NCBI GenBank assembly: GCA_003133425.1
Contig: PKXI01000322.1
Coordinates: 717 to 25,439, forward strand
From: Acidobacteriaceae bacterium
GTDB lineage: Bacteria; Acidobacteriota; Terriglobia; Terriglobales; Acidobacteriaceae
Direction: 5' to 3'
DNA: 24,723 nucleotides
Every line of letters starts with the position of its first letter. Position 1 is the stretch's first letter. The translations under genes and the position numbers were made by a program. A model generated the notes under the pieces. The model searched no databases, had not been told where the DNA came from, and was given only the letters and a program-made list of their open reading frames with translations. Positions 1,513 through 24,723 of the stretch are shown here, in pieces.

Positions 1513-3165
1513 ATGGCGAGGCCGATTCTGTTAGCGGTGGATGACGACGTAAGCGTTCTGGAAGCGGTGGTACAGGACCTGCGAAGGCAATATGGCGCCA
1601 CCTACCGGGTAATGCGAGCAGCGAGCGGGCAGGCTGCACTGGATACGCTGGCGCAGGTAAAGACGCGTCAGGAGCCGGTGGCACTCCTGGTGAGCGATCA
1701 GCGTATGCCGGGAATGGCCGGCGTGGAGTTTCTGGAGCGCGCGCAGGAGATTTATCCGGATGCGCGGCGGGTGCTGCTGACGGCCTACGCGGACACGGAG
1801 GTGGCCATCCGTGCGATCAATACGGCCCGGATTCACTACTACCTGACGAAGCCCTGGGATCCGCCGGAAGAGAAGCTTTACCCGGTATTGACCGACCTGC
1901 TGGAGGATTGGCAGGCTGGCTATCGGCCGCCCTTTGAGGGGCTGCGCGTGATTGGTCACCGGTGGTCGTTGAAGGACCACAAGGTGCGCAACTTTCTTTC
2001 GCGGAACCATGTGCCCTACCGCTGGCTGGACATTGCAGGCAACGAGGAGGCTTTCCAACTGCTGAAGGACGCGGGGCTGGATCCGGACGTGTTGCCCGTG
2101 GTGTTGTTTGCCGATGGGGCCGCGCTGGTGGACCCGGAGACGGAGGAGCTTGCGGCGCGGGTGGGGCTGAGGGTCCAAGCCGAGCAGGAGTTCTATGACA
2201 TGGTGGTGGTGGGCGCCGGGCCTGCGGGGCTGGCTGCGGCGGTTTATGGCGCCAGCGAGGGTTTGCGTACGGTAGTGATTGAGCCAGTAGCGCCGGGAGG
2301 CCAGGCGGGGTCTTCATCGAGGATCGAGAACTACCTTGGATTCCCTTCAGGAGTGACGGGAGCGGACCTGGGGCGGAGGGCACACACGCAGGCCACGCGC
2401 TTTGGCGCCGAGTTTGTAACGCAGCGGGCTACGGGCCTGCGCATCGAGGGGCAGTACCGCTTTGTGCAACTTGCCGACGGGCGCGAGGTTTCGAGCCACG
2501 TGGTGCTGCTGGCTCCCGGGGTGCAGTACCGCAAGCTTGGAATTCCTGATGCGGACCGGTTGACGGGGCGAGGCATCTACTACGGAGCGGCGCCGGTAGA
2601 GGCTGTTGCGTGCAAGGACGAAGAGGTGTTTGTAGTGGGGGGCGCGAACTCGGCCGGCCAGGCGGCGCTGCACTTTGCCAAGTTTGCCCGCAAGGTGACG
2701 ATGCTGGTGCGGGGAGAAGGACTTTCGGCAACCATGTCGAAATACTTAATCGATGAGATCGAGCGAACATCCAATATTGTGGTGGAGCCGGGCACGCAGG
2801 TGCTGGAGGCAATGGGCGAAGAGAGGCTGGAGACGCTGAAATTGAGCGGGCCGCAGGGGGAGTATCAAGCTCCTGCTTCGTCGGTGTTTGTGTTTATTGG
2901 AGCGGCGCCGGGGACGAAGTGGCTGCCGGCGTCGATCTTGCGGGACGACAAAGGGTTTTTGCTGGCAGGACCGGATCTGCGGATTGAAGGCAAGTTGCCG
3001 GAAAGCTGGCGTGAAGCGCGCGAGCCGTACTTGCTTGAGTCCAGTGTGCCGGGTGTGTTTGTGGCCGGCGATGTGCGGCACGGTTCGGTAAAGCGCGTGG
3101 CCTCGGCGGTGGGCGAAGGATCGATTGCGGTGCAGTTTGTTCACCAATACCTGGCGGGGTTCTAG
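1513..3165 (+). CDS. Fused response-regulator receiver / thioredoxin-like / thioredoxin-reductase-like flavoprotein
   Basis: 550 residues with three parts. Residues 1-133 are an intact CheY-like receiver (acidic Asp10-Asp12, phosphoacceptor Asp62 in LLVSDQRMPG, Thr90, Lys113 in TKPW). Residues about 142-220 are thioredoxin/glutaredoxin-like in length and pattern but have no cysteines. Residues about 226-550 are a thioredoxin-reductase-type flavoprotein with FAD motif GAGPAG (234-239), NADPH motif GGANSAGQAA (376-385) and second FAD motif PGVFVAGD (513-520). Where thioredoxin reductases carry CxxC, this protein reads YYGAAPVEAVAC, so the redox dithiol is absent. It is probably an NAD(P)H-linked flavin oxidoreductase whose activity or partner contact is set by phosphorylation. 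The ATG is preceded by gagga. The histidine kinase 300 bases downstream is the likely partner. Similar fusions are annotated in other genomes, but I know of no defined substrate. Confidence 0.93.
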   Translation: MARPILLAVDDDVSVLEAVVQDLRRQYGATYRVMRAASGQAALDTLAQVKTRQEPVALLVSDQRMPGMAGVEFLERAQEIYPDARRVLLTAYADTEVAIRAINTARIHYYLTKPWDPPEEKLYPVLTDLLEDWQAGYRPPFEGLRVIGHRWSLKDHKVRNFLSRNHVPYRWLDIAGNEEAFQLLKDAGLDPDVLPVVLFADGAALVDPETEELAARVGLRVQAEQEFYDMVVVGAGPAGLAAAVYGASEGLRTVVIEPVAPGGQAGSSSRIENYLGFPSGVTGADLGRRAHTQATRFGAEFVTQRATGLRIEGQYRFVQLADGREVSSHVVLLAPGVQYRKLGIPDADRLTGRGIYYGAAPVEAVACKDEEVFVVGGANSAGQAALHFAKFARKVTMLVRGEGLSATMSKYLIDEIERTSNIVVEPGTQVLEAMGEERLETLKLSGPQGEYQAPASSVFVFIGAAPGTKWLPASILRDDKGFLLAGPDLRIEGKLPESWREAREPYLLESSVPGVFVAGDVRHGSVKRVASAVGEGSIAVQFVHQYLAGF

Positions 3166-3329
3166 CAGGCTGCGGAAAAAGGCCTGAATTTGATTTTGGC
3201 GCGAAGTGGAGTTTCGCAGGGGCTAAAGCCCACGTTCATTTTGCGACATTTGCGGCACGACTAAAGTCGTGCCCTGTTACAAAGCCTTGAGGTTTTATGC
3301 CAAGACCGAGTTTTTCCGCAGCCTGCTAG
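3162..3329. repeat. 168-bp element with perfect 19-bp terminal inverted repeats
   Basis: The left end ctagcaggctgcggaaaaa (3162-3180) is the exact reverse complement of the right end at 3311-3329. Inside are two further hairpins, gggctaaagccc (3220-3231) and ggcacgact-aa-agtcgtgcc (3254-3273). The same internal pair recurs at 8802-8855. The stop codon TAG of the upstream flavoprotein gene (3163-3165) lies inside the left end. No open frame is present, so this is a non-autonomous or structural element rather than an insertion sequence. Confidence 0.85.
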
Positions 3330-3468
3330 GGCGTTTTGGGAGGGGCATTCGACGGCTGAAATGGAATTTTGCGGTCCCTCACCATTTGAGCGAATGAGGC
3401 ATAAAGGATGGGGCGCCCAGGTTAGAACGACTGTGAAGACGGTTCAGGTGGGGGAGAAGCAAGCAAGG

Positions 3469-4950
3469 ATGAGCGTGGAAGGAAAATTACTGGAGATCGA
3501 ATCGGTCCCGTTGGCGGAGATCATAGAAGCTCTGCGTCGGACGCGTCCTTTTGCCGAGACGAGCGCGGAGACTCTGCTTGGCGCGCTTGGCGGCGTTGTC
3601 GGCGTGGAACGCGTGACGGCCAGGGCGGGCGCGGTGCTGATGGAGCCGGGGAAGCCCTGGCACTTCTATTGGCTGGTGCTTGACGGCGAGACACGGGCCG
3701 AGCGCCCGGAACAAGATGGGTCGCTGACACTGGTGGGAATTGCGCGCACCGGCGAGGGATTTGGCGAAGCGCCGATGCTGACCGGCAAAGGCTACTCGCC
3801 CTTCCTAATTACGGCGACACAGGATTCGCTGCTGTTGCGATTCACGGAAGAGGATTTTTGGAAGCTGCTTGCCTGCTGTGCATCGGCGCGCAAAGTGGTG
3901 CTGGCCGATATGGCGGTGCGGTTGCAGGCTTACCAGGTAGAGGCGCTGCACCGCGAGAAGCTGGTGTCATTGGGGACACTGGCGGCAGGGTTGATGCACG
4001 AGCTGCACAATCCGGGTTCGGCGGCCAAGCGTGCTGCTTCGCAACTGCGCGAAAACCTGAAGCGGCTGCAGGAGCTGAGTCTGCGGTCGGCGGGGAAGCC
4101 GAAGACGCAACTTCAATTGGAGTGCATGCACAGTCTGTTGGACCACGCGGTTCGGAGCTGCTCCGCGCCCGCATTGAGCACAGTGGAACAGTCGGACGCG
4201 GAAGAGGCGATGTCAGAGTGGCTGCAGGCGGCCGGAGTAGAAAACGCATACACGATTGGGCCAGCGCTGGTGGCGATTGGCTTCGACCAACAGGAACTTG
4301 CCTGCGCGCGGGAGGCGTTTGCGGCGGGGAGTTTTTCAGACGCGCTGAACTGGCTGGAGGCGCTGGTTTCAAGCGTCACTCTGGTGTGTGCGATTGAGGA
4401 AAGCATCACGCGCATTTCAGACCTGGTGATGGCGGTGAAGAAGTTCGCCTACGACGAGCGGTCGCCGGACAGGGAAATGGACGTACACGACAATTTGCAA
4501 AGCACGCTGACGATTCTGGGCCACAAACTTCGGCTGAAACAGATTGGCGTGGACAAGCGGTTTGAGGCTGAACCTTCAATCATTCGCAGCAAAGGATCGG
4601 CGTTGAGCCTGGTGTGGACCAACCTGATTGATAATGCCGTGGACGCATCACCGGAGAAGGGGCAGATTGAGATTGCGACCTGGAATGAAGCAGGGGCGGG
4701 GATTGAACCGGGATGGCTGGCGGTGAGCATTACCGATCATGGCGCGGGGATTCCGGAGGATGTAAAGCCGCGGATCTTTGAGGCGTTTTTTACAACCAAA
4801 CCGCAAGGATCGGGGACCGGGCTGGGGCTGGAGATTGTTCACCGGATTGTGACACAGAAATTTGGCGGCACGATTGAGGTGGAGTCGCAGCCGGGGAGTA
4901 CGCGGTTCATTGTGAGGCTGCCGATGAAGGGTGCGCAGGCGGCGCGGTGA
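3469..4950 (+). CDS. Cyclic-nucleotide-binding-domain sensor histidine kinase
   Basis: 493 residues from the ATG at 3469; no membrane segment is seen, so it is probably cytosolic. Residues about 15-150 form a cNMP-binding (Crp-like) beta-roll. The dimerisation/phosphoacceptor helix carries HELHNPGSAA with His177. An unusual insert of about 110 residues follows. The ATPase core has N-box NLIDNAVDAS (385-394), G1 DHGAGIP (423-429), F-box IFEAFFTTK and G2 GSGTGLGLEI (447-456). The frame extends up to an ATG at 3361, but that stretch contains REP-like sequence (ataaaggatggggcgcc). ATG 3469 has ggggga upstream, so I prefer it. It most likely phosphorylates the receiver of the preceding flavoprotein, making a two-component system with a redox enzyme as output. 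The ligand of the sensor domain is unknown. Confidence 0.9.
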   Translation: MSVEGKLLEIESVPLAEIIEALRRTRPFAETSAETLLGALGGVVGVERVTARAGAVLMEPGKPWHFYWLVLDGETRAERPEQDGSLTLVGIARTGEGFGEAPMLTGKGYSPFLITATQDSLLLRFTEEDFWKLLACCASARKVVLADMAVRLQAYQVEALHREKLVSLGTLAAGLMHELHNPGSAAKRAASQLRENLKRLQELSLRSAGKPKTQLQLECMHSLLDHAVRSCSAPALSTVEQSDAEEAMSEWLQAAGVENAYTIGPALVAIGFDQQELACAREAFAAGSFSDALNWLEALVSSVTLVCAIEESITRISDLVMAVKKFAYDERSPDREMDVHDNLQSTLTILGHKLRLKQIGVDKRFEAEPSIIRSKGSALSLVWTNLIDNAVDASPEKGQIEIATWNEAGAGIEPGWLAVSITDHGAGIPEDVKPRIFEAFFTTKPQGSGTGLGLEIVHRIVTQKFGGTIEVESQPGSTRFIVRLPMKGAQAAR

Positions 4951-5052: not shown

Positions 5053-6345
5053 GTGAAACCACAGATTTTTCATATTAAGCAGAAGCTCTTTGTGCCGGTT
5101 CTGGCCTTGGCATTTTTGGGATTATCCGCGAGCGCTTTGCATGCGGCGGCGAACTGCGACGCACGCGCGCTTGGCGCCAAGGGTGATGGAACCACGAAGG
5201 ACACGGTTGCGCTGCAGGGTGCGATTGATGCATGCGCCAAGCAGGGGGGCGGCACGGTGCGGCTGACGGCGGGCACGTATTTGAGCGCGCCGATCGTGCT
5301 GAAAAGCAATGTTACGCTGCGGCTCGACAAGGGCGCAACGCTGCTTGGATCCCCCAAACACGAGGACTACCCTCCGATTACGATGTTTCATTTGCCGGAT
5401 TTGCAGCCGCTGGTGAGCGCGACGAATGCGTCGAACGTGGCGATTGAGGGCGAAGGCACGATTGACGGCAACGGCGAGAGCTGGTGGCAGCAGGCGCGGG
5501 CGATCAAGGATCATGGCGTGCTTGGCAACGGGCACCCGCGGCCGAAACTGATCATCTTCGATCACTGCAAGAATGTTCGCGTTGAGGGAGTGACGATCCA
5601 GAACTCGCCGATGTGGCAACTGGTTCCGTATTACACCGACAGCATGGTGATTCGCAACGTGAGGATCCTGGCGCCGCAACACTCGCCGAATACCGACGCG
5701 ATCGATCCGTTCTCGTCTTCGAATTTGATTATCGATCACGTGTACTCCGATGTGGGCGACGACAATGTCGCGATCAAATCGGGGCCGATCAATTCGCCGG
5801 GGCCGGACGATCCGAGCAAGAATATTACGATTACGGACTGCACGTTCAAGCATGGGCATGGGCTGTCGATCGGGAGCGAACTCTCCGGTGGTGCGCAGAA
5901 TATTCGTGCGGAGCGGATCAGCTTTGAGGGCACAGACAATGGGATTCGCGTGAAGTCCAATCGCGACCGCGGGCACGATGTGGGGAACCTGATCTTCCGC
6001 GACATCACGATGAAGGGCGTGAAGAATCCGATTATCATCAGCGAGTACTATCCCAAGGTGATGCCGCCGGCGGACGAAGCGGCACAAGTGGTTGGGCGGC
6101 TGACACCGCACTTCCACGACATTGTGCTGGAGAATGTGACGGCAACAGGGGCTGGCGTGGCTGCGGTGATCGCGGGGCTTCCGGAGTCACCGGTGAAGAA
6201 CGTGGTGCTGAATCATGTGAAGATCAGCGCGGAGACTGGAATGTCGGTTGGCTATGCCGAAGTGACGGGCAATGGCGTGGTGGTGACGGCGGAGAAGGGC
6301 GAGGCGATTACGAAGATGACGGGGGCGAACGTTACGCTGCGGTGA
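5053..6345 (+). CDS. Secreted GH28 polygalacturonase family glycosidase
   Basis: 430 residues starting at a GTG with gagga six bases upstream. Residues 1-32 form a Sec signal peptide (KLFVPVLALAFLGLSASALHAAA). The rest is a right-handed beta-helix of family GH28 with all its signature sites: NTDAID (213-218), GDDNVAIKSG (235-244, two catalytic Asp), GHGLSIGSE (268-276) and RVKSN (299-303). NTDAID in place of NTDG, and the overall length, suggest an exo-acting enzyme that releases galacturonate or a digalacturonide from pectin, but this is not proven. It would work in the periplasm or outside and supply the uronate pathway encoded by the convergent operon. A GGT-N3-ACC palindrome before the gene suggests control by the GntR-type regulator. 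Confidence 0.93.
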   Translation: MKPQIFHIKQKLFVPVLALAFLGLSASALHAAANCDARALGAKGDGTTKDTVALQGAIDACAKQGGGTVRLTAGTYLSAPIVLKSNVTLRLDKGATLLGSPKHEDYPPITMFHLPDLQPLVSATNASNVAIEGEGTIDGNGESWWQQARAIKDHGVLGNGHPRPKLIIFDHCKNVRVEGVTIQNSPMWQLVPYYTDSMVIRNVRILAPQHSPNTDAIDPFSSSNLIIDHVYSDVGDDNVAIKSGPINSPGPDDPSKNITITDCTFKHGHGLSIGSELSGGAQNIRAERISFEGTDNGIRVKSNRDRGHDVGNLIFRDITMKGVKNPIIISEYYPKVMPPADEAAQVVGRLTPHFHDIVLENVTATGAGVAAVIAGLPESPVKNVVLNHVKISAETGMSVGYAEVTGNGVVVTAEKGEAITKMTGANVTLR

Positions 6346-6535: not shown

Positions 6536-7312
6536 TTATTGGTTGACGCCGCTGGCGAGGAAGCCGCCGTCGACTACGAGGGTTTGTCCGGTGACGAAGG
6601 AGGCGGCGTCAGAAGCTAGATAAATGGCGGCGCCGATAAGCTCTTCGGTTTTTCCGAAACGGCCCATGGGGGTGCGCATGAGGAGTTCCTGACCGCGGGG
6701 CGTCGAGTCGAGCAGGTTGGCGTTGAGGTCGGTGCGGAAGACGCCGGGTGCAATGGCGTTTACGGTGACACCCTTTTTGGACCACTCGACGGCGAGGGAG
6801 CGAGTGAGGGAGGCGACGCCGGCCTTGCTGGCGGCGTAGGCGGCTACTTCACTGAGGGCGACGAAGCTATTGAGCGATGCGATGTTGATGATGCGGCCGT
6901 AGCCGCGCTCGAGCATGTGCCTGCCGAAGATCTGGCAGGCGCGCAGGGTTCCGGTGAGGTTGGTGTCGAGGATGCTGGTCCATTCTTCTTCGGGGAAGTC
7001 GAGGGTCGGGGAGCGCTTGATTCTTCCGGCGCAGTTGATGAGGATGTCGACTTTGCCGAAGCGGTCGAGGGTGGCGGTCAGCAATGTTTCCAGCGATTCG
7101 CGATTGCAGACGTCCGAGGTCAGGCGCAGAGATTTGCGGCCGCGGGCTTCGATTTCGCCGGTGGTCTCTTCTACCTCATGCTGGCGGCGCGCGGTGGCAA
7201 TAACGTCGGCGCCGAAATCGGCAAGCCCGAGGCTGAGGGCGCGGCCGATTCCAGAGGTGCCTCCGGTAACGACCGCGGTTTTACCTTCAAGGCTGAGAAT
7301 ATGAGCTGTCAT
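6536..7312 (-). CDS. SDR-family dehydrogenase, KduD / gluconate 5-dehydrogenase-like
   Basis: 258 residues, a classical short-chain dehydrogenase. It shows cofactor motif TGGTSGIG (16-23), NCAG (93-96), catalytic Ser146 and Tyr159-x3-Lys163, and a C-terminal VTGQTLVVDGG. The sequence is closest in character to 2-dehydro-3-deoxy-D-gluconate 5-dehydrogenase (KduD) and gluconate 5-dehydrogenases. It is the last gene of the minus-strand uxaC operon, with ggagagg directly before the ATG. KduD would process the product of KduI, whose gene is 11 kb away. Alternatively, because the operon has no UxuB, it may reduce fructuronate to mannonate; the sequence alone cannot decide. The family is secure, the substrate is not. 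Confidence 0.88.
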   Translation of the reverse strand: MTAHILSLEGKTAVVTGGTSGIGRALSLGLADFGADVIATARRQHEVEETTGEIEARGRKSLRLTSDVCNRESLETLLTATLDRFGKVDILINCAGRIKRSPTLDFPEEEWTSILDTNLTGTLRACQIFGRHMLERGYGRIINIASLNSFVALSEVAAYAASKAGVASLTRSLAVEWSKKGVTVNAIAPGVFRTDLNANLLDSTPRGQELLMRTPMGRFGKTEELIGAAIYLASDAASFVTGQTLVVDGGFLASGVNQ

Positions 7313-7470: not shown

Positions 7471-8724
7471 TTACGCGTTGCGCCCTAGAAAGACGGGGGC
7501 GATGTGGCGGTTGTAGAGATTTTCGGTCACGTTCTTTGCGATCACGGATTCGTTGGCTTCAAGCAGGTCGAGATAGCGGCGGCCCATTTTTGCGGCGACC
7601 TTGAAACCGACATGAAGCAACTGGCGGAGGCTGCTGTTATATGCGGGGTTGGCCTGGACGTGACGCAAGGCAGAGGTGTATTGCTCCGAGGTCCAGCCGC
7701 GGACTTCATCGGGCGAGGGGAGCTTCGCGGGATCGATGTCAATGACGGTGGCATAAGGGGCGCAGAGCTCCTCGCGATGGGCGAAGGCTTCGGCGTAGAT
7801 TTCCTTGGCGAGGGCGAGACCGTCTCCACCGGCTTCGGCGAGACCGATGAGTTCTTCAAGCCACGTGGTTCCGGCGGTCTTGAGGTGGACGCCGGCGTTG
7901 AAGCGCCTGGTGCATGCGTAAATGGCGGGGTAGATGGAGAATTTGTCGCTGCCGGAGTGAACGCTGAGCTTGAGATTCGCGGGCAGGCCGAATTGTTTGA
8001 CGGCGTAGGCGATGGCGGCGATGTCGAGGCCGAATTCGCGCTCGAACTGGGCTACGTCGCCGACGTAGTCGACGCCCTTGTTGAAGCGGCCGCTGAACTT
8101 GGGGGCGACGGTCTGGACGGGAATGCCTTCATCGGCGATGGCGGCCAGGATGATGAGCAGCTCGACTGGGCTCTGGGCGCGATCGGTTTCGTCCATTGAA
8201 ACTTCGGGGATGAAGTTGCCTACACCTTTGGCGCTTACGACCTTGCGGTAGACTTCGCGGGCTTTCTTGACCGCGGCGAGAAATTTCTGCGCGGCCTGGC
8301 GGAGGTCATCGGCTGTGATGTCGAAGGCGGCATCGACGCCGGCGAGCTGAATGCTGCCGAGGAGTTCGGGATGGCGCTTTACGAATGCGTCGATGTCCGC
8401 CGCCTGCGGGGGCTGGCCGATGAAGTCTGCTACGTCGATGGTGAAGAAGTCGCAGGGGGCGAGGAAGCGGTCGACGGTTGCAATGGTGATGTGGTCGGCG
8501 TCGCAATAGTAGGGGAGCTTCCACGCGAGTGCTTTGACCGCGGCATCGGCGGCCTGACGTGCTGATAAGGGCTCAGAGCCGATGATCATGTGTTCGCGGT
8601 TCGACTTGTTCCACACGGGAACGACTTCGATTCCGCTCGAGAGGGCTTTTACGCAGGCCTGTAATTGAGCCTTGGCCTGGTGAGAGAATCTGTCGCCGGT
8701 TCCAACCGAATATTTGTTGAGCAT
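7471..8724 (-). CDS. uxaE: D-tagaturonate 3-epimerase (UxaE family)
   Basis: About 417 residues. It converts D-tagaturonate to D-fructuronate, letting galacturonate enter the glucuronate branch without altronate enzymes. Family features known from the Thermotoga enzyme are present: GTGDRFS near the N-terminus, DADHITIATVDRFL, SMDETDRAQSPVELL, SVHSGSDKFSIYPA, GVHLKTAGTTWLEEL and RQLLHVGFKV. The conserved Asp, His and Glu in these stretches probably bind a divalent metal. The frame extends one codon further to TTG (8727); I chose the ATG at 8724. It lies between the LarA-like gene and the SDR gene in the operon. The 215 bases upstream hold palindromic and tandem repeats, so its expression may be partly uncoupled from the genes above. 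Confidence 0.88.
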   Translation of the reverse strand: MLNKYSVGTGDRFSHQAKAQLQACVKALSSGIEVVPVWNKSNREHMIIGSEPLSARQAADAAVKALAWKLPYYCDADHITIATVDRFLAPCDFFTIDVADFIGQPPQAADIDAFVKRHPELLGSIQLAGVDAAFDITADDLRQAAQKFLAAVKKAREVYRKVVSAKGVGNFIPEVSMDETDRAQSPVELLIILAAIADEGIPVQTVAPKFSGRFNKGVDYVGDVAQFEREFGLDIAAIAYAVKQFGLPANLKLSVHSGSDKFSIYPAIYACTRRFNAGVHLKTAGTTWLEELIGLAEAGGDGLALAKEIYAEAFAHREELCAPYATVIDIDPAKLPSPDEVRGWTSEQYTSALRHVQANPAYNSSLRQLLHVGFKVAAKMGRRYLDLLEANESVIAKNVTENLYNRHIAPVFLGRNA

Positions 8725-8801
8725 CAAGCTTTGGTTCTCCGTGGTTTCTTTTTCTGTCTTGAAGAATTTGTGATCAGGTCTCTGCCGCGTCCATTGCCTC
8801 G

Positions 8802-8855
8802 GGGGCTAAAGCCCCGATTGATATTGCTCACTTGCGGCACGACTAAAGTCGTGCC
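8802..8855. repeat. Paired-hairpin repeat, second copy
   Basis: ggggctaaagcccc (8802-8815), a 20-base spacer, then ggcacgact-aa-agtcgtgcc (8836-8855). The same two hairpins in the same order and nearly the same spacing lie inside the 168-bp element at 3162-3329. The long outer inverted repeats of that element are absent here. Confidence 0.8.
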
Positions 8856-8955
8856 CTTTCAAAGCCGCCGTTCGCTAGAGCTGCGCCCTTCCAAAAACCT
8901 TCGCTTCCTAAGGCCGCGCCCGTTCAAAGCCTCCACTTGCTAGACTGCCGCTTTC
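8851..8955. repeat. Degenerate 32-33-bp tandem repeat
   Basis: Three full units start at 8851, 8883 and 8916, each built as g(t/c)gccc, ttcaaa-like core, a C/T-rich middle and a (t/g)ctag-like end. A fourth partial unit (gctttcaaaacc) follows. The array runs from the intergenic hairpin repeat into the 3' end of the LarA-like gene, whose stop codon (8940-8942) lies in the third unit. Confidence 0.6.
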
Positions 8956-10250
8956 AAAACCTCGGCCGGTTCGGGGGTTTCATTGAGGCGGCTGCGATGG
9001 GCCCATAATCCCAAACCTGGATTGGCGATGAAGAAGACTTCTTCACCATCGACCTGGTTGTAACCGTGCTGGAGCTTTGCAGGATCGAAGCGCGACGTCA
9101 TTGTCTTGAGATCGCAATAGCTGAAGCCGACGCCTTCGACTTCTTCCCGAGTGAGCTGTCCGGGGCACCAGGTGATCTTGAAACGTCCTTCAGACGAGGC
9201 GTGGATGAGGTGCGCGGCTGCGCTGAGATCGCTACCCAGGTCCGGATTGTCATTGACAGCTTTCAGCGTCGCCGGAGTTCCGCGATAGCCGTATTTGCGG
9301 ATGAGCGCGTCGATGCCCTTGTCTTCGCCAAATTCGTGCACGCCGGGAGCGAGGATGATGAGTTCGGCGCCATCGGCGAGTGCCATGCGGGTGCGGTAGA
9401 CGGCCTTGTTGCCGATCCATGTGGAGTGAAACTCGCTGGGATCGAGGAAGACGACGGCCTTGTGAATCTGCTTGTCGACTATCTCGAAGTTGACCTTGAG
9501 GCTCAGCTCGGCGGCCCGAAGGAAGCACTCGATGTCGTCGCCGATGAACAGGCCGCGCACGGCGAGGCCTCCGTCTGTCTTGCGCCCGACGACCGTCTGC
9601 ACGTAGACGATGGGCAGGTGGCGCAGAAAATGGTCGGACGCGTAGTTGAGCACGTTGCGCACGGGATTGATGGCGCGGCCCATGATGCGCTCCATGCCGT
9701 AGACGGCGCCCAGGTAGTGGCTGCGGTTGATGCCTTCGCGACCACCGGTGCCGATGAGGATGTTCTTTGTGAAGTTGGCCATGCCGATGACTTCGTGGGG
9801 CACGACCTGGCCGATGGAGAGAATGAGATCGAATCCGCCGCTGGAGATGAGCTTGTTGACCTGTGCGGGCCAAGCGTAGGTCAGCTTGCCTTCAGACTGT
9901 TCGCGGATGAACTCCGACGGGACTTCGCCAACAGTCTCGACGTCGGTGCGCCAGTTGTGAACCTTGAACAGATTTTGCGGCACGGAGGGAAACATGTGCG
10001 TGAGCTGGTCGGGGCGCATGGGCGTGTGCGTTCCGATGGCAGGAAGAACGGCTTTGAGCTTGTCGCCGTAGTGCTTGTAGATATAGCCGGTGAGTTCGCC
10101 GGCACGCGAGTGTTCGCGGCTCTGGTCGGGGGGCACGGCGAGGACATTCTTGCGGTCTCCGAGCTTGGCCACGCTTTCCACGAGCAGGTCGTTCAACTGC
10201 TGCGGAGTGAGATCGGTATCGACGCTTCCGGTGGCGCAATAAAGGCTCAT
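8940..10250 (-). CDS. LarA-family nickel-pincer racemase/epimerase homologue (DUF2088)
   Basis: 436 residues, matching the lactate racemase LarA superfamily. The catalytic set is placed as in LarA: Asp42 and Arg45 (PDQSR), His75 (GTHTPM), His152 (VPHEVIG), Lys162 and His178. The His-to-Lys distance of 10 and His-to-His distance of 26 equal those of LarA H174, K184 and H200. Lys162 would anchor the nickel-pincer nucleotide, made by LarB, LarC and LarE, which are not in this window. Family members also include gluconate 2-epimerase and malate racemase. In a hexuronate operon the likely substrate is an aldonate such as mannonate, not lactate. Its start overlaps the permease stop (ATGA), so translation is coupled. 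The family is secure; the substrate is inference. Confidence 0.88.
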   Translation of the reverse strand: MSLYCATGSVDTDLTPQQLNDLLVESVAKLGDRKNVLAVPPDQSREHSRAGELTGYIYKHYGDKLKAVLPAIGTHTPMRPDQLTHMFPSVPQNLFKVHNWRTDVETVGEVPSEFIREQSEGKLTYAWPAQVNKLISSGGFDLILSIGQVVPHEVIGMANFTKNILIGTGGREGINRSHYLGAVYGMERIMGRAINPVRNVLNYASDHFLRHLPIVYVQTVVGRKTDGGLAVRGLFIGDDIECFLRAAELSLKVNFEIVDKQIHKAVVFLDPSEFHSTWIGNKAVYRTRMALADGAELIILAPGVHEFGEDKGIDALIRKYGYRGTPATLKAVNDNPDLGSDLSAAAHLIHASSEGRFKITWCPGQLTREEVEGVGFSYCDLKTMTSRFDPAKLQHGYNQVDGEEVFFIANPGLGLWAHRSRLNETPEPAEVLKAAV

Positions 10251-11554
10251 GCTGACAACTCAACTTTCTTTAATCCCGGCGCGAGCAGGAGGATGATTGC
10301 CAGTGCGGTGAGGTATGCGCTGGCCGCGACGATAAAGAGGGTGGCATAGCTGTGGGTCATTTGCAGGATGAAGCCTGAATAGGTGGCGAGCAGAATGCCG
10401 CCAACCGATCCAGCCATTCCGCCGATGCCGGTGACAGAACCAACAGCAGCGCGCGGAAACATATCCGAGGTAGTGGAGAAGAGGTTTGCTGACCAGCCCT
10501 GGTGTGCTGCGGCAGCCAGACTGAGAAGGGCCACTGCTACCCATTCGGAGTTGGTGTAGTTGACCGCAATGATCGGCACCACGAGGCAAGCACAGAGCGA
10601 CATGGCAGCCAGGCGCGCCTTGGTGGGCGACATTCCCATTCTGATAAAGGGAGCGGGTAGCCAGCCCCCGCCGATGCTGCCAATGGTGGTGCAGTTATAG
10701 ACAATGATGAGCGGCAAACCGAGATGTGAGAGATTCAGGTGAAATCTCTGGGTGAAGTAGGAGGGGAGCCAGAACAGGTAGAACCACCAGATGGGATCGG
10801 TGAGGAACTTGCCAAGAGTAAAGGCCCATGTCTGGCGATATCCGAAGAGCTTGATCCACGGCGTGGAAGGCCCGGGTTTCTCAGTGATTCCCTTGTTGAT
10901 GTATTCCAGTTCGGCGGCGCCGAGGGCGGGGTGTTCGGTGGGCTTGTGGTACTTGAAGAACCACAGGACGATCCAGGAGGCGCTGAACAGGCCAGTTGCC
11001 AGAAAGGCCGCATGCCAGCCATAGTGAATTGTGACCCAGGGAACGATGAGCGGAGCCAGGATGGCGCCCACATTGGCTCCCGAGTTGAAGATGCCAGTGG
11101 CCAGCGAGCGCTCGCTTTGCGGGAACCACTCAGCAGTGGTTTTGATCGCGGCAGGAAAGTTACCGGATTCGCCGATGCCGAGGCAGGCGCGGGCAATGCC
11201 AAACTGCAACACCGTGTTGGCAAGCGCATGGCCCATTGCGGAGAGGCTCCACAAGGCCATGATGACCATGTAGCCGATGCGGGTGCCGATTCTGTCAACA
11301 AAGCGGCCGGCCATTAGCAGGCCCAGCGCGTAGGCAAACTGAAAGGCGTCGACGACGTAGCCGTAGTCGAGTTCGGACATGCCGATGCTTGCCTGGAGGG
11401 TGGGCTTGAGGATGCCGATGACCTGGCGATCCATGTAGTTGATGGTGGTGGCGGCGAAGAGCATGGCGCAGATCGACCAGCGCACGCGCCCTATCCGTGC
11501 GCTGATCGGGGAATCTTCCTTAATCGCGACAGCTGAATCCGTACTGCCATCCAT
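10247..11554 (-). CDS. MFS hexuronate permease, ACS family (ExuT-like)
   Basis: 435 residues with about 12 hydrophobic segments. The first helix ends in NYMDRQVIGIL, the ACS-family signature. GRFVDRIGTRIGY forms the loop between helices 2 and 3, and ACLGIGESGNFPAAIKTTAEWFP is typical of hexuronate, galactonate and glucarate proton symporters. It would carry galacturonate or glucuronate across the inner membrane. Position supports this: it lies 10 bases after uxaC and overlaps the LarA-like gene by ATGA. Aaggag sits six bases before the ATG. The exact uronate cannot be read from sequence. Confidence 0.9.
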   Translation of the reverse strand: MDGSTDSAVAIKEDSPISARIGRVRWSICAMLFAATTINYMDRQVIGILKPTLQASIGMSELDYGYVVDAFQFAYALGLLMAGRFVDRIGTRIGYMVIMALWSLSAMGHALANTVLQFGIARACLGIGESGNFPAAIKTTAEWFPQSERSLATGIFNSGANVGAILAPLIVPWVTIHYGWHAAFLATGLFSASWIVLWFFKYHKPTEHPALGAAELEYINKGITEKPGPSTPWIKLFGYRQTWAFTLGKFLTDPIWWFYLFWLPSYFTQRFHLNLSHLGLPLIIVYNCTTIGSIGGGWLPAPFIRMGMSPTKARLAAMSLCACLVVPIIAVNYTNSEWVAVALLSLAAAAHQGWSANLFSTTSDMFPRAAVGSVTGIGGMAGSVGGILLATYSGFILQMTHSYATLFIVAASAYLTALAIILLLAPGLKKVELSA

Positions 11555-11564
11555 GTCTTTCTCC

Positions 11565-12956
11565 TTACAGCTTGTAGGCCTTCTTTACCAATGAATAGGT
11601 CAGCTCGTGCGCGAGTTCAAATGCTTCGTCTTCATCCAGGCGGTGCTGGGCGACGAGATTGGCAAGGAAAGCGCAGTCGATGCGCCGTGCCACGTCGTGC
11701 CGCGCCGGGATGGAAAGGAATGCCCGGGTGTCGTCGTTGAAACCTACGGTATTGTAAAAGCCCGCCGTTTCCGTAGCCTGCTGCCGGAAACGCATCATTC
11801 CCTCAGGACTGTCATGAAACCACCACGGGGGTCCAAGGCGCAAGCACGGATAATGGCCTGCGAGCGGAGCCAGTTCGCGGCTGATGGTGGACTCGTCGAG
11901 CATGAAGAGAATGATGGTGAGTTTGGTTTCGTTGCCAAAGCGGTCGAGCAAGGGGCGGAGTGCATCAACGTAGTTGGTAGGCCGCGGGATGTCGGCGCCC
12001 ATGTCGCGGCCATAGTGCTCGAAGACCTTGCGATTATGATTGCGCACGCTGCCGGGGTGAATCTGCATGGTGAGGCCGTCTTCCAGGCTCATTTGCGCCA
12101 TTTCAGTAAGCATCTGGGCGCGGAAAAGCTCGTTGTCTGCGGCGCTGGATTTGCCGGAGAGAACCTTGCTGAAGAGGGAAGCTGCTTCAGCGGCGGGAAG
12201 GTCGGCGGTTTGCGCGGTGGGGTGGCCATGGTCGGTGGCCGTGCAACCCTGTTCGCGGAAACGTGCACGGGCTTTGCGCAAGGCGGTGAGATAGCCCTTC
12301 CAGGCGGAGGTGTCCTCGCCGGTTTGTTCACCGAGCTTTGCAATCAGGCCGGCAAACCCTGCGAAGTCGGGATCGACGACCGGGTCGGGACGGAAGGCGG
12401 GCAAAATTCTCGCATTCCAGCCGGAGGCGCGAATCGCCTTGTGATCGTCGAGCGAGTCGGTGGGCGAGTCGGTAGTGGACAGGACCTCAATATTGAAACT
12501 CTTAAAAAGGGCGCGGGGCAGGAACTCGGGGGTACGCAGCTTTTCGGCGATGGTATCGAAATAGTGGTCTGCGGTTTTTTCCGAGAGGCGCTCCGTGAAT
12601 CCAAAGTGCTCCTGGAAGGCATAATCCAGCCAGACGCGCGTGGGGGTGCCGCGGAACAAGTAGTAGTGCTTTGCGAAGATGTGCCAGACCTTGCGGGGGT
12701 CCTTGATGACTGCTTGTCCGATTCCGAGATCGTCAAGAGAGACGCCCTGACTGTAGAGCATCCTGAAGACGTAGTGGTCAGGCTGCACGAACAAGGTGGC
12801 GGGGTCAGGAAATGGTCCATTGTTAGCAAACCAAGCGGCATTGGTATGCCCGTGGGGGCTAATGATGGGCAGGTTTTTTATATGTGCGTACAGGGCTCTG
12901 GCGACTTTGAGGGCGCTGGCCTCGGTTGGAAACAGACGATCTTCATGGAGCAGCAT
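11565..12956 (-). CDS. uxaC: Glucuronate/galacturonate isomerase
   Basis: 463 residues, full length for UxaC, an amidohydrolase-fold aldose-ketose isomerase. It turns D-galacturonate into D-tagaturonate and D-glucuronate into D-fructuronate. Signature stretches include SPHGHTNAAWFANN with His35 and His37, DYAFQEHFGFTERLSE, VLSTTDSPTDSLDDHKAIRASGW, MQIHPGSVRNHN and GPPWWFHDSPEGMMRFRQQATE near the C-terminus. It is the first gene of the minus-strand operon. The ribosome site is weak (gagggg some 14 bases before ATG). The divergent GntR/FCD gene lies 193 bases away. Confidence 0.96.
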   Translation of the reverse strand: MLLHEDRLFPTEASALKVARALYAHIKNLPIISPHGHTNAAWFANNGPFPDPATLFVQPDHYVFRMLYSQGVSLDDLGIGQAVIKDPRKVWHIFAKHYYLFRGTPTRVWLDYAFQEHFGFTERLSEKTADHYFDTIAEKLRTPEFLPRALFKSFNIEVLSTTDSPTDSLDDHKAIRASGWNARILPAFRPDPVVDPDFAGFAGLIAKLGEQTGEDTSAWKGYLTALRKARARFREQGCTATDHGHPTAQTADLPAAEAASLFSKVLSGKSSAADNELFRAQMLTEMAQMSLEDGLTMQIHPGSVRNHNRKVFEHYGRDMGADIPRPTNYVDALRPLLDRFGNETKLTIILFMLDESTISRELAPLAGHYPCLRLGPPWWFHDSPEGMMRFRQQATETAGFYNTVGFNDDTRAFLSIPARHDVARRIDCAFLANLVAQHRLDEDEAFELAHELTYSLVKKAYKL

Positions 12957-13019: not shown

Positions 13020-13149
13020 AAGTATACACATGGCTCCGGAGGTCGTGAATTCCTTCGCGAGGCGAAGATTTCAGGGCAGATACACGCTCCTCAGTGGTAA
13101 GCTCATTCTGTCTGGATTTCGATCAATCTGGAGAAGGTGGCTGACACTT

Positions 13150-13884
13150 ATGCCGCGGACAAAGCAAGACGAACCTAATACCCACCGCACCATGCAGGTG
13201 GTTAACCACATCCGATCCCTGATAGAAAATGGCACGTTGCAACCGGGCGACAAGATTCCGCCGGAACGCGAATTTGCGCGCACACTCAAGATCAGCCGGG
13301 CCAGTCTTCGAACCGGCATTGGCTACATGGCCGCCATGGGAGTGATGAAGGTCCGGCATGGCGTGGGAACCTTTGTGGCCGATGGTCCGCCGGAGTTCGG
13401 CAAGGCGTCGCTTGGCCTGATGGGCGCGTTGCACGGCTTTCAGACATGGCAGATGTTTGAGGCCCGCATCATTCTCGAAAGCAACATTGCGGCACTTGCG
13501 GCCGAACGCGGCAAGGACGAGCACTATACGGCAATGGCCGAGGAAGTGGCCGAGATGTTTGCGGCGATGGAGAGCCCGGCGGATTTTCTGATTCACGACC
13601 TGCTTTTCCACCGCATCATTTCGCAGGCATCCGGCAATCCAATTCTGGCGGCAGTGATCGAGACCATCACGTCGGCACTCTACGACAAGCGGCGCAAGAC
13701 GGCGGAACGATCCATCGACATGCGCGAGTCCGCGGAGATGCACCGGGAGATCTACCGGGCAATTCGCGCTCGGAAATCGCAGGAGGCTCGCAAACTGATG
13801 GAAGAGCACCTGCGCATGGCTCAAACCTCGCAAGGGATGGAACGGCCTCCGGACCGCAAGGCGGTGCTGGTGGCAAGCCGGTAG
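13150..13884 (+). CDS. GntR-family transcriptional regulator, FadR/FCD subfamily
   Basis: 244 residues from the ATG at 13150, which follows ggagaagg; the frame also runs upstream to 13030 without a better start. The winged helix-turn-helix is at about 14-77 (VNHIRSLIENGTLQPGDKIP, then PEREFARTLKISRASLRTGI). An all-helical FCD ligand domain spans 100-225, with likely metal or ligand residues Asp150, His154, His198 and His220. Divergent placement beside uxaC makes it the probable regulator of the uronate operon, like UxuR or ExuR, with a uronate intermediate as inducer. Two GGT-N3-ACC palindromes are candidate binding sites. The true effector is unknown. Confidence 0.92.
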   Translation: MPRTKQDEPNTHRTMQVVNHIRSLIENGTLQPGDKIPPEREFARTLKISRASLRTGIGYMAAMGVMKVRHGVGTFVADGPPEFGKASLGLMGALHGFQTWQMFEARIILESNIAALAAERGKDEHYTAMAEEVAEMFAAMESPADFLIHDLLFHRIISQASGNPILAAVIETITSALYDKRRKTAERSIDMRESAEMHREIYRAIRARKSQEARKLMEEHLRMAQTSQGMERPPDRKAVLVASR

Positions 13885-15294: not shown

Positions 15295-15530
15295 GAAAGG
15301 CAAGCGCCTGGCCGTGCCACCCAGATCGTGAGCGGCGGAAAGCTGACGGTATGGCCGCAGCAGGACGATGCGTTGACACTTAAGCCGGTGTCAGGCCGCA
15401 ACTACGAGATGCCGTCATTAGTGATTTGTCCCAAGAACGCCGTAATGGGTATAGTTGGTTCGGCGCCGCCCCGCAACGCGCACTGGACCGCTATGAAAAG
15501 TGGGCCCAGGAATTTCCGGAGTCCAAATGA
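15295..15530 (+). pseudogene. Frame-broken gene remnant upstream of GH105
   Basis: Two adjacent frames read like protein. The first contains TQIVSGGKLTVWPQQDDALT, then LKPVSGRNYEM, resembling the last beta-strands of a glycosidase. From 15384 a second frame, shifted by one or two bases, gives 48 codons ending RALDRYEKWAQEFPESK. It has no ATG and opens after an in-frame TAA. Its TGA (15528-15530) overlaps the GH105 ATG (15527) as ATGA, the arrangement of a translationally coupled pair. I read this as a truncated and frameshifted former upstream gene. The family is not recognised. Confidence 0.4.
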
Positions 15531-17455
15531 AAATCTTTCGCAATCTTGCCTTGGTTCTCTTGCTTGCCGGAATAGCAAGCGGCTCGTTCGCCGCAATAAA
15601 TAAAGATGAGTTGCCGTGGTCGCAGCGCGCCGCCAATGCGGCGATGGCGCGCTGGCCGCAGGGACATATTGATGGGCCCAACGCGAAGCCGGCCTTCAAG
15701 TATGAACTGGGCACGCTGCTCGGAGGCATCGACAATGTGTATCTGAATACGGCTGATGCGCGCTTCTACAACTACATGAAGAGCGCGGTGGACGAGTTGG
15801 TGACGGCCGATGGAGCTATTCCGACATACAAGCCAGAGGAGAACCAGCTCGATAGCATCCTGATGGGGAGACAACTGCTGCGTCTCTACGGCGTGACGCA
15901 GGACAAGCGCTATCTGACGGCGGCCACGCTGCTCTACGATCAGTTGCAGAAGCAGTCACGGACGCCCTCGGGGGGCTTCTGGCACAAGCAGCGGTATCCG
16001 AATAAGATGTGGCTCGATGGGCTCTACATGGCCGAGCCATTTTATGCAGAGTACGCGTCGATCTCGCATCAGCCGGAGAAGTTAGCGGATGTCACGCACC
16101 AGTTTGCGCTGGTTGCAGAGCACATGCGCGACGCGAAGACGGGCTTGCTGTACCACGGGTGGGACGAGTCGAAAGAGCAGCGCTGGGCCGACAAGAAGAC
16201 TGGACTCTCACCGGAGATTTGGGGCCGCGCCATGGGTTGGTACATGATGGCGCTGGTGGATACGCTGGACTACTATCCTGCGGACGACGCGGGGCGCAAG
16301 CAACTGCTTGCGATCCTCGGCGAAGAAGCCGCTGCGCTGGTACGCGTGCAGGATGCGAAGACCGGGCTCTGGTATGAGGTGCTCGACAAAGGCACCGCAA
16401 AGGGGAATTACCTTGAGTCGTCGGCATCGTGCATGTTCGTCTATGCGCTTGCTAAGGGTGTGCGACGCGGCTATCTGCCGGAACACTACATTGCGAATGC
16501 GGAGCGAGGGTACAAGGGGATTCTCGCGAAGTTCATTGAGGTTGGGCCGGGCGACGATGTGTCGGTGGCCAGCACGATGAAGGTGGGCGGACTGGGCGGC
16601 GATCCGTACCGCGATGGAACCTATGCCTACTATCTGAGTGAGAAGGTAGTTGCGAACGATCCGAAAGGCGTGGGGCCGTTCATCATGGCGGCGACCGAAA
16701 TGGAGAACGCGCAGAATGCGAAGCTGGGCCGCGGCGATACGGTGCTGATGGACGGCTGGTTCAACTCGCAGAAGAGAGCGGATGCGTTTGGCAGGCAAGT
16801 GTACTTCCATTACAAGTGGGATACACAGGATATGCCGGGGTACTCGCTGGTCGGGCGCATCTTCAGGAATTTTGGCGTGGAGACGAAGGAACTTGACGCG
16901 CGGCCTACGTTTGAGAATCTCAGCAAGGCGCAGGTTTACATGATCGTTTCGCCGGATAATCCGGACAAGAATCCTCATCCGAATTTTGCCATGGCGGAGG
17001 ATGGGGAGCAGATAGCGAAATGGGTGAAGGCAGGTGGCGTGCTCGCGATCATGGAGAACGATACTTCGTTCGCGGACCTGGACCACTTCAATGCAATCGC
17101 TGAGAAGTTTGGCATGCACTTCAACAGCGTACTGCGCAAACATGTGATCGGTACAAATTGGGAGCAGGGAAGGATCGAGCTTGATGGCACTGGGCCGATC
17201 TTTCACCATCCGCACACCATTTATGTGAAAGACGTCTGCACGATCTCGGTGAAGGCTCCCGCGGTTTCTGTGCTGAAGGAAGGCGACGACATATTCATGG
17301 CCACGGCGAAGTACGGGAAGGGAACTGTCTACGCCTTCGTCGATCCGTGGCTTTATAACGAGTACACCGACGGGCGAAAGCTACCGACAATGTACGGCAA
17401 CTATGCCGGAGGTGTGGAATTGGTTCGCTGGCTTCTCGAGCAGGTTCCACGCTGA
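15527..17455 (+). CDS. Secreted GH105 unsaturated rhamnogalacturonyl hydrolase with C-terminal Rossmann-like domain
   Basis: 642 residues from ATG 15527; the longer frame from 15500 would spoil the signal peptide MKIFRNLALVLLLAGIASGSFAA. Residues about 30-390 are a six-hairpin GH105 domain. Catalytic Asp164 is in MWLDGLYMAEPFYAEY, with GRAMGWYMMALVD (233-245) and NYLESSASCMFVYALAKG typical of YteR-like enzymes, which remove 4,5-unsaturated galacturonate from lyase products. A further 220 residues (KWDTQDMPGYSLVGRIFRNF onward) look like a Rossmann/GATase-like DUF4350-type domain, not present in minimal YteR. The product is the substrate of KduI, encoded 620 bases downstream. The start overlaps the stop of a gene remnant. 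Confidence 0.92.
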   Translation: MKIFRNLALVLLLAGIASGSFAAINKDELPWSQRAANAAMARWPQGHIDGPNAKPAFKYELGTLLGGIDNVYLNTADARFYNYMKSAVDELVTADGAIPTYKPEENQLDSILMGRQLLRLYGVTQDKRYLTAATLLYDQLQKQSRTPSGGFWHKQRYPNKMWLDGLYMAEPFYAEYASISHQPEKLADVTHQFALVAEHMRDAKTGLLYHGWDESKEQRWADKKTGLSPEIWGRAMGWYMMALVDTLDYYPADDAGRKQLLAILGEEAAALVRVQDAKTGLWYEVLDKGTAKGNYLESSASCMFVYALAKGVRRGYLPEHYIANAERGYKGILAKFIEVGPGDDVSVASTMKVGGLGGDPYRDGTYAYYLSEKVVANDPKGVGPFIMAATEMENAQNAKLGRGDTVLMDGWFNSQKRADAFGRQVYFHYKWDTQDMPGYSLVGRIFRNFGVETKELDARPTFENLSKAQVYMIVSPDNPDKNPHPNFAMAEDGEQIAKWVKAGGVLAIMENDTSFADLDHFNAIAEKFGMHFNSVLRKHVIGTNWEQGRIELDGTGPIFHHPHTIYVKDVCTISVKAPAVSVLKEGDDIFMATAKYGKGTVYAFVDPWLYNEYTDGRKLPTMYGNYAGGVELVRWLLEQVPR

Positions 17456-18077: not shown

Positions 18078-18908
18078 ATGAAGACGGTAATGATGGCTGA
18101 TCCGGTGCGGTATCCGCGTATGACGACCGGGGAAATTCGCGAGACATTTTTGCTGAATGGGCTCTGCGAACCGGGCAAGCTGCATGTGAACTACGTGGAC
18201 CTTGATCGTACTGTGGTTGGATTTGCGGCTCCAACAGAGAGCGCGCTGACGCTGCCGACGTATCCGGAGCTGCGAGCGGAATATTTTCTGGAGCGGCGCG
18301 AAATTGGCGTGCTGAATGTGGGCGGGGCAGGCACAGTGAGCGTTGAGGGGAAGAGCTACGAGCTGAACAACCTGGATGCGCTGTACGTTGGCAAGGGCAA
18401 CAAGCAGGTGAGCTTTGCTTCGAAGGACAAGGCAACGCCAGCGGTCTATTACCTGCTGAGCTATCCGGCACACACGGAGTTCCCGGTGACCGTGGTGAGG
18501 AAGGCAGAGGCCAATCCGACCGAACTGGGCTCGGTGGAGACCTGCAACAAGCGGACGATCTGCAAGTACATCTTTCTGCAGGGCGCGCGGAGCTGCCAAC
18601 TTGTGATGGGCGTGACGCACCTGGCTGCGGGGAGTAACTGGAACACGATGCCTCCGCACACGCATATGCGGCGCTCGGAGGTCTACATGTACTTCAACGT
18701 TGCTGAGGATGCGCGGGTAGTGCACCTGATGGGGCCGCCGGATGAGACGCGGCACATTGTGATGGCCGACAAGGAAGTAGTGGTGTCTCCGGGCTGGTCG
18801 ATTCATGCGGGTGTGGGGACGCGGGCTTACAGCTTTGTGTGGGGGATGGGCGGCGAGAACCAGGATTACGCGGACATGGATCCGGCGCCGGTTCAGAGCC
18901 TTCGGTAA
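18078..18908 (+). CDS. kduI: 5-dehydro-4-deoxy-D-glucuronate isomerase
   Basis: 276 residues, full length for KduI, a cytosolic zinc cupin. It isomerises 4-deoxy-L-threo-5-hexosulose uronate, the product from unsaturated uronates, to 2,5-diketo-3-deoxygluconate, the KduD substrate. Zinc ligands are His194, His196 and Glu201 in PPHTHMRRSEVYMYF, and His243 in SPGWSIHAGVG, at the spacing of the E. coli enzyme. The start has ggggagaag immediately upstream. It follows the GH105 gene and CE8 remnant on the same strand, so its substrate would come from GH105. No kduD neighbours it; the SDR gene at 6536-7312 is the candidate partner. Confidence 0.96.
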   Translation: MKTVMMADPVRYPRMTTGEIRETFLLNGLCEPGKLHVNYVDLDRTVVGFAAPTESALTLPTYPELRAEYFLERREIGVLNVGGAGTVSVEGKSYELNNLDALYVGKGNKQVSFASKDKATPAVYYLLSYPAHTEFPVTVVRKAEANPTELGSVETCNKRTICKYIFLQGARSCQLVMGVTHLAAGSNWNTMPPHTHMRRSEVYMYFNVAEDARVVHLMGPPDETRHIVMADKEVVVSPGWSIHAGVGTRAYSFVWGMGGENQDYADMDPAPVQSLR

Positions 18909-24662: not shown

Positions 24663-24723
24663 TTAGACGGTGTAGGTGCTGGAGGAGACGCGGCCGCCCT
24701 TGCCGGTCCAGTTGGTGTGGAAG
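24663..24723 (-). CDS. C-terminal end of an unidentified protein (partial)
   Basis: Only the last 19 codons and TAA are inside the window: FHTNWTGKGGRVSSSTYTV. The frame continues past the window edge. The terminator hairpin just after the stop, and a decayed copy of the same tail plus hairpin at 19814-19925, support it as a real gene end. The family cannot be named from so short a piece. Confidence 0.55.
   Translation of the reverse strand, partial: FHTNWTGKGGRVSSSTYTV

Follow-up and report, generated by a model that had tools for sequence, protein, structure and literature searches.

The hexuronate operon and its surroundings

The analyzed window, a stretch of 24,723 nucleotides from a soil acidobacterium (contig PKXI01000322.1), contains an operon with the gene order UxaC-MFS-LarAH-UxaE-SDR, all on the minus strand. 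For coordinates, strands and the matches behind each assignment see Table 1.

Table 1. Features of the window with their coordinates and supporting matches
Feature	Position	Strand	Evidence
GH28 polygalacturonase	5053..6345	+	PF00295 178.4 bits
SDR, probable fructuronate reductase (UxaD type)	6536..7312	-	adh_short_C2; role inferred from position
Tagaturonate/fructuronate 3-epimerase UxaE, start codon uncertain	7471..8727	-	PF16257 162.6 bits; PDB 6il9 UxaE E 4.6e-26
LarAH group 18, putative D-mannonate/D-gluconate 2-epimerase (GntE-like), NPN-dependent	8940..10250	-	NF052594, 4NAR match, residues
ATGA overlap, transporter stop / LarAH start	10247..10250	-	coordinates
MFS transporter, probable hexuronate permease (ExuT-like)	10247..11554	-	MFS_1 190 bits; TIGR00893 252 bits, below cut-off 395
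Uronate isomerase UxaC	11565..12956	-	PF02614 273.6 bits; NF002794 585.5 bits, cut-off 387
GntR-family (FCD) regulator, divergent from operon	13030..13884	+	PF07729, PF00392
GH88/GH105-type unsaturated uronyl hydrolase	15500..17455	+	PF07470 344.5 bits
KduI, 5-dehydro-4-deoxy-D-glucuronate isomerase (unsaturated uronate branch)	18078..18908	+	NF002091 386.1 bits, cut-off 250
gnd (6-phosphogluconate dehydrogenase), last 19 codons + stop, cut by window edge	24663..24722	-	tblastn

The LarAH gene was described in a preliminary description as translationally coupled to a uronate permease gene. The four-base ATGA overlap between the two genes bears this out, the transporter being a probable hexuronate permease, and by coordinates the same overlap occurs in 10 of 23 related loci. 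UxaE had no match among the NCBIfam models. For the SDR the best NCBIfam match was KduD (257.7 bits); gluconate 5-dehydrogenase and D-mannonate oxidoreductase also matched, and all three are below cut-off. Its closest relatives in the PDB are 4j2h and then 1vl8, presumably the SDR encoded at the gntE locus in T. maritima.

The operon is surrounded by the GH28, GH88/105 and KduI genes and by an esterase-like gene. Judged by these predicted functions, operon and surroundings together are a pectin-use cluster. At the right edge of the window, 14 of 17 residues of the Gnd fragment are identical in the tblastn match (E 1.5e-4); the C-terminus was also compared with the Gnd proteins of two related loci (L002 and L019). 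No gntK gene was found in the window.

Two further features of the window were noted. The intergenic palindrome GGCACGACTAAAGTCGTGCC is present at positions 3254-3273 and 8836-8855, where none would be expected by chance; exact copies occur in 3 of 143 loci (L005, L008 and L013) and it looks like a dispersed repeat of the clade. On the plus strand, positions 1513-3165 encode a pyridine-nucleotide-disulphide oxidoreductase with a fused response-regulator receiver domain, and a cNMP-binding histidine kinase comes next at 3361-4950. Both ORFs have relatives in L001, L006, L013, L019 and L020.

Family, fold and active-site residues of the LarAH protein

The LarAH protein matches the NCBIfam model NF052594 (putative hexonate epimerase, LarAH group 18) with 638.7 bits over residues 12-417, at a cut-off of 500. 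We found nothing in which it differs from this family, the function of which is itself a prediction. A fold comparison identified the LarA fold, and the best PDB match by sequence as well as by fold is 4NAR. This entry is GntE2 of T. maritima (Q9WYS3, presumably TM0442), a member of LarAH group 20 with 25% identity to the window protein over the structural alignment. The lactate racemase LarA from L. plantarum (5HUQ) has 12% identity.

All LarA catalytic positions had previously been listed as present at LarA spacing. The sequence comparison confirms this and adds a seventh residue, Lys282, that was absent from the earlier list. The NPN-binding residues R45, K162 and H178 (R75, K184 and H200 in LarA) and the catalytic residues D42, H75, H152 and K282 (D72, H108, H174 and K298 in LarA) are found in 22 out of 22 sequences. 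Equally invariant are E153-V154, directly after the catalytic histidine, W278 near Lys282, and the pair A346-H347. The latter was aligned to A351-H352 of 4NAR, although PMC7583248 maps LarA W358 to N348 of 4NAR. Glu, Val, Ala and His are the usual residues of GntEs at four pocket positions (PMC11770544); whether A346-H347 stand for the Ala and His of this signature, at the places of LarA W358 and T359, is not certain, and a further profile search did not reach LarA itself.

These residues bear on the possibility that the enzyme is a racemase of lactate, or of another small 2-hydroxy acid, that is part of the operon by chance. The Pfam model matched by the protein is Lar_N, and many relatives carry the name "nickel-dependent lactate racemase" in one source (JGI). 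In the window protein, however, E153-V154 occupies the loop positions where lactate racemases usually have Phe-Phe (PMC11770544), as is the case in 5HUQ. The two NCBIfam models for malate racemase, the only ones besides NF052594 to match, score far below their cut-offs, and the uronate operon is conserved. The earlier view that lactate racemization does not fit this locus thus stands, and we regard a racemase of this kind as extremely improbable.

According to PMC7583248, groups 18, 19 and 20 have features of a loop (EV/S) and of two helices in common. The same study showed in 2020 that members of groups 19 and 20 convert D-mannonate to D-gluconate, GntE2 being an assayed D-mannonate/D-gluconate 2-epimerase, and hypothesized a hexonate substrate for group 18. 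We found no assay of a group-18 enzyme in the literature searched. The window protein differs from GntE2 at two positions, with V154 in place of S156 and N281 in place of G286. This difference, the high KM that GntE1 shows with mannonate and the uronate context are compatible with an NPN-dependent epimerase whose sugar-acid substrate would be an isomer of mannonate or an aldarate, as the authors suggested for group 19 (PMC7583248). The operon, however, is expected to yield fructuronate and hence mannonate, and the linkage to gntK and gnd described below points to gluconate. Another sugar acid as the substrate therefore appears unlikely.

Related loci, cofactor genes and linkage to gntK and gnd

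A scan of genome contigs yielded 23 related loci. By name nearly all are acidobacterial and one (L018) is from a spirochaete. UxaC was found in 19 of them, as was an SDR with at least 70% identity, some of the misses being due to contig ends. The next operon gene downstream of LarAH is uxaE in 18 of the 23 loci; in L021 the two are 1.8 kb apart.

Five of the 23 loci (L014, L015, L016, L017 and L021) have gntK between uxaE and sdr. A gnd gene is present in six others (L002, L010, L012, L018, L019 and L020), whole in five and as the 5-prime part in L012. TIGR00873 was over cut-off for gnd in L002 and L018 and below it for the truncated piece of L012; the calls in L010, L019 and L020 were made by tblastn only. 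The start of gnd lies within 40 bases downstream of the SDR gene in L010 and within 40 bases downstream of the LarAH gene in the spirochaete locus. ORFs resembling hutH and ribB, an identification made by eye, stand beside gnd in L019 and L020, so gnd may in part be a neutral neighbor of the operon.

The spirochaete locus contained no relatives of UxaC, UxaE or the SDR, which counts against a mannonate/gluconate epimerase. In this locus (L018:9086-12740) the LarAH gene lies between a gene for a HAD-like hydrolase and gnd. Locus L010 contains a second set of genes (L010:15387-20438) with GH28-like, cupin, UxaE-like, KduI-like and SDR ORFs; the UxaE-like part is split into two ORFs that overlap and include an ambiguous residue.

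Genes for the synthesis of the cofactor were found close to the operon in two loci: larB, larC and larE in L014 and L017. At its edge, L015 also has the end of a larB gene. In the genomes of 15 relatives LarC (PF01969) and LarE (TIGR00268) were each over cut-off in 14, and in 13 they lie side by side on one contig. The LarC match of G009 is in pieces. For the LarB adjoining LarC, two proteins were scanned and NF033503 confirmed both. G014 is the exception among the 15, with no LarC and only a fragment of LarE below cut-off; it is also the one genome of the eight most like the window in which the pair is not kept. The check for larB, larC and larE, which was run on the relatives, hence did not find them missing there. 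Since they are present in the relatives, NPN biosynthesis is to be expected in the host as well.

Given the EV loop and the gntK or gnd genes in the neighborhood, the substrate is best read as mannonate/gluconate. The preliminary description had proposed an aldonate C2-epimerase, for example one linking mannonate and gluconate, in hexuronate catabolism; the match to NF052594, the EV loop, the operon and the gntK/gnd linkage make this the most plausible assignment. On the strength of these comparisons we consider the window enzyme to be probably an NPN-dependent D-mannonate/D-gluconate 2-epimerase of the GntE type from LarAH group 18.

Proposed route and the exits from mannonate

Based on the gene content we propose the following route. 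Galacturonate derived from pectin would be isomerized by UxaC to tagaturonate, which UxaE would epimerize to fructuronate. The SDR would then reduce fructuronate to D-mannonate. For the inversion at C2, the LarAH enzyme would transfer the C2 hydride to the pincer cofactor while a catalytic histidine takes the proton of the hydroxyl group, giving a 2-keto acid. Re-reduction from the other face would yield D-gluconate, the chemistry being that published for LarA. Gluconate would finally be phosphorylated to 6-phosphogluconate, which would enter the pentose phosphate pathway by way of Gnd. The substrate, the direction in vivo, the role of the SDR and, for the clade of the window, the kinase are inferred.

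The preliminary description had regarded such a pathway variant as undescribed. Rodionova 2012 (as cited in PMC6978723; genes in PMC3750489) had proposed the sequence UxaC-UxaE-UxaD-GntE-GntK-Gnd for T. maritima and noted that Lactobacillus, Acidobacterium and Terriglobus have homologues of gntE (as cited in PMC6978723), so the branch is not new. In T. maritima uxaE, uxaD, gntE, gntK and gnd share one pectin regulon (PMC3750489). In the literature searched we found no papers combining galacturonate either with lactate racemase and Acidobacteria or with Granulicella and uronate isomerase. The order of enzymes proposed for T. maritima is the same as that inferred here, and UxaC, UxaE and the SDR (as families) as well as the C-terminal end of Gnd are present in the window. 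Two differences concern uptake and phosphorylation. The transporter is of the MFS type in the window and an ABC system in T. maritima (PMC3750489). The T. maritima route includes GntK, whereas the window lacks its gene.

The lack of a visible UxuA had been part of the original argument for an epimerase. In order to judge this argument we used a sample of 200 genomes from the family of G001 (Granulicella paludicola), scoring 17 candidates per genome for GntK and up to eight for ManD, the non-homologous mannonate dehydratase, so that the counts for these two are lower bounds. LarAH18 was over cut-off in 78 genomes, GntK in at least 109, UxuA in 35 and ManD in at least 69. UxuA was commoner, not rarer, alongside LarAH18 (26 of 78 genomes versus 9 of the 122 others), and the same direction was seen for ManD (at least 40 of 78 versus at least 29 of 122) and GntK (at least 58 of 78 versus at least 51 of 122). 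P values of such co-occurrence tests mean little, because shared ancestry and genome completeness are ignored. At least 52 of the 78 LarAH18 genomes have UxuA or ManD, and the T. maritima control was itself over the UxuA cut-off, with an NF052594 match below cut-off. The argument from a missing UxuA is thus weak, and replacement of UxuA by the epimerase as a general rule was not borne out, both dehydratases being positively associated with LarAH18. Two exits for mannonate coexist in many LarAH18 genomes, and the epimerase is not a simple substitute for UxuA. In a third of these genomes (26 of 78) neither dehydratase was found, which suits an exit via gluconate; GntK was found in 20 of these 26, and none of the three in six of the 78. 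In 15 of the 58 genomes that have both GntK and LarAH18, the two genes are no more than 6 kb apart.

The step from gluconate to 6-phosphogluconate may be different in the clade of the window. Eight of the 15 genomes of relatives (G005-G008 and G011-G014) are window-like, with LarAH identities of 77-91%; they are MAGs of unstated completeness. GntK (TIGR01313) was over cut-off in eight of the 15 and in only one of the eight window-like ones (G013), where it lies on a contig other than that of the operon. Five window-like genomes (G005-G008 and G014) keep gnd in the locus while GntK is not over cut-off. The FGGY gluconokinase model TIGR01314 was over cut-off in none of 13 genomes. These GntK results count against the gluconate reading. 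TIGR01313 gave no call in the T. maritima control either, and since the route of that organism is held to have a gluconokinase, a genome with no match may still have a kinase of another type.

We scanned eleven of the FGGY proteins encoded by G005-G008, G011 and G012; two are XylB over cut-off (L143 from G005 and L149 from G006). Six (L147, L148 and L150-L153) were rejected as substitutes for GntK, being glycerol kinases over the NF000756 cut-off. The remaining three (L144:916-2433 from G005, L145:808-2520 from G012 and L146:799-2400 from G008) are below the xylulokinase and gluconokinase cut-offs and are candidates for the kinase of the gluconate step.

With regard to dehydratases in the window-like genomes, the ManD model NF043051 passed its cut-off in G007, G011, G013 and G014. 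In G005, G006 and G008, where one MR_MLE protein each was scanned, the score stayed below that value. One UxuA-like protein of G008 passes the cut-off of NF003027. Two UxuA-like proteins (L042 and L044) of G005, the genome of the closest locus L019, score 122 and 136 bits where the mannonate dehydratase model requires 191, and possibly form a separate dehydratase or isomerase subfamily. No specific gluconate dehydratase was among the four PF00920 proteins scanned from relatives; these comprise one IlvD, two members of dihydroxy-acid/L-arabinonate dehydratase subfamilies and one YjhG/YagF xylonate dehydratase.

The retention of gnd without GntK over cut-off in five of the eight window-like genomes would also be consistent with a reversed order of steps, in which mannonate is phosphorylated first and then epimerized to 6-phosphogluconate by a 6-phosphomannonate 2-epimerase. 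Both activities have been reported for extracts of Lactobacillus suebicus, the genes not being known (PMC6978723). GntE1 and GntE2, on the other hand, use unphosphorylated mannonate (PMC7583248), gntK lies within the operon in the five loci named above, and the operon of the window contains no candidate for a mannonate kinase. For the window enzyme we consider this activity highly unlikely. A broader proposal for the clade without a GntK-type kinase is a rewired route to 6-phosphogluconate that would link galacturonate to the nearby gnd, either through a non-GntK kinase, perhaps of the FGGY family, or through phosphorylation before epimerization with LarAH18 as the 6-phosphomannonate 2-epimerase. 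Such rewiring is conceivable but distinctly unlikely.

For the preferred D-mannonate/D-gluconate 2-epimerase, the results for the window-like clade point to a kinase that is not yet assigned. Group 18, so far a predicted hexonate epimerase, gains genomic support as GntE from the gntK or gnd genes close to it in several loci, including the spirochaetal one. This linkage, seen in acidobacterial genomes and in one spirochaete, is what the present analysis adds for group 18. The occurrence of LarAH18 in 78 of 200 genomes suggests that pectin catabolism commonly includes a nickel-pincer step in the family of Granulicella paludicola.
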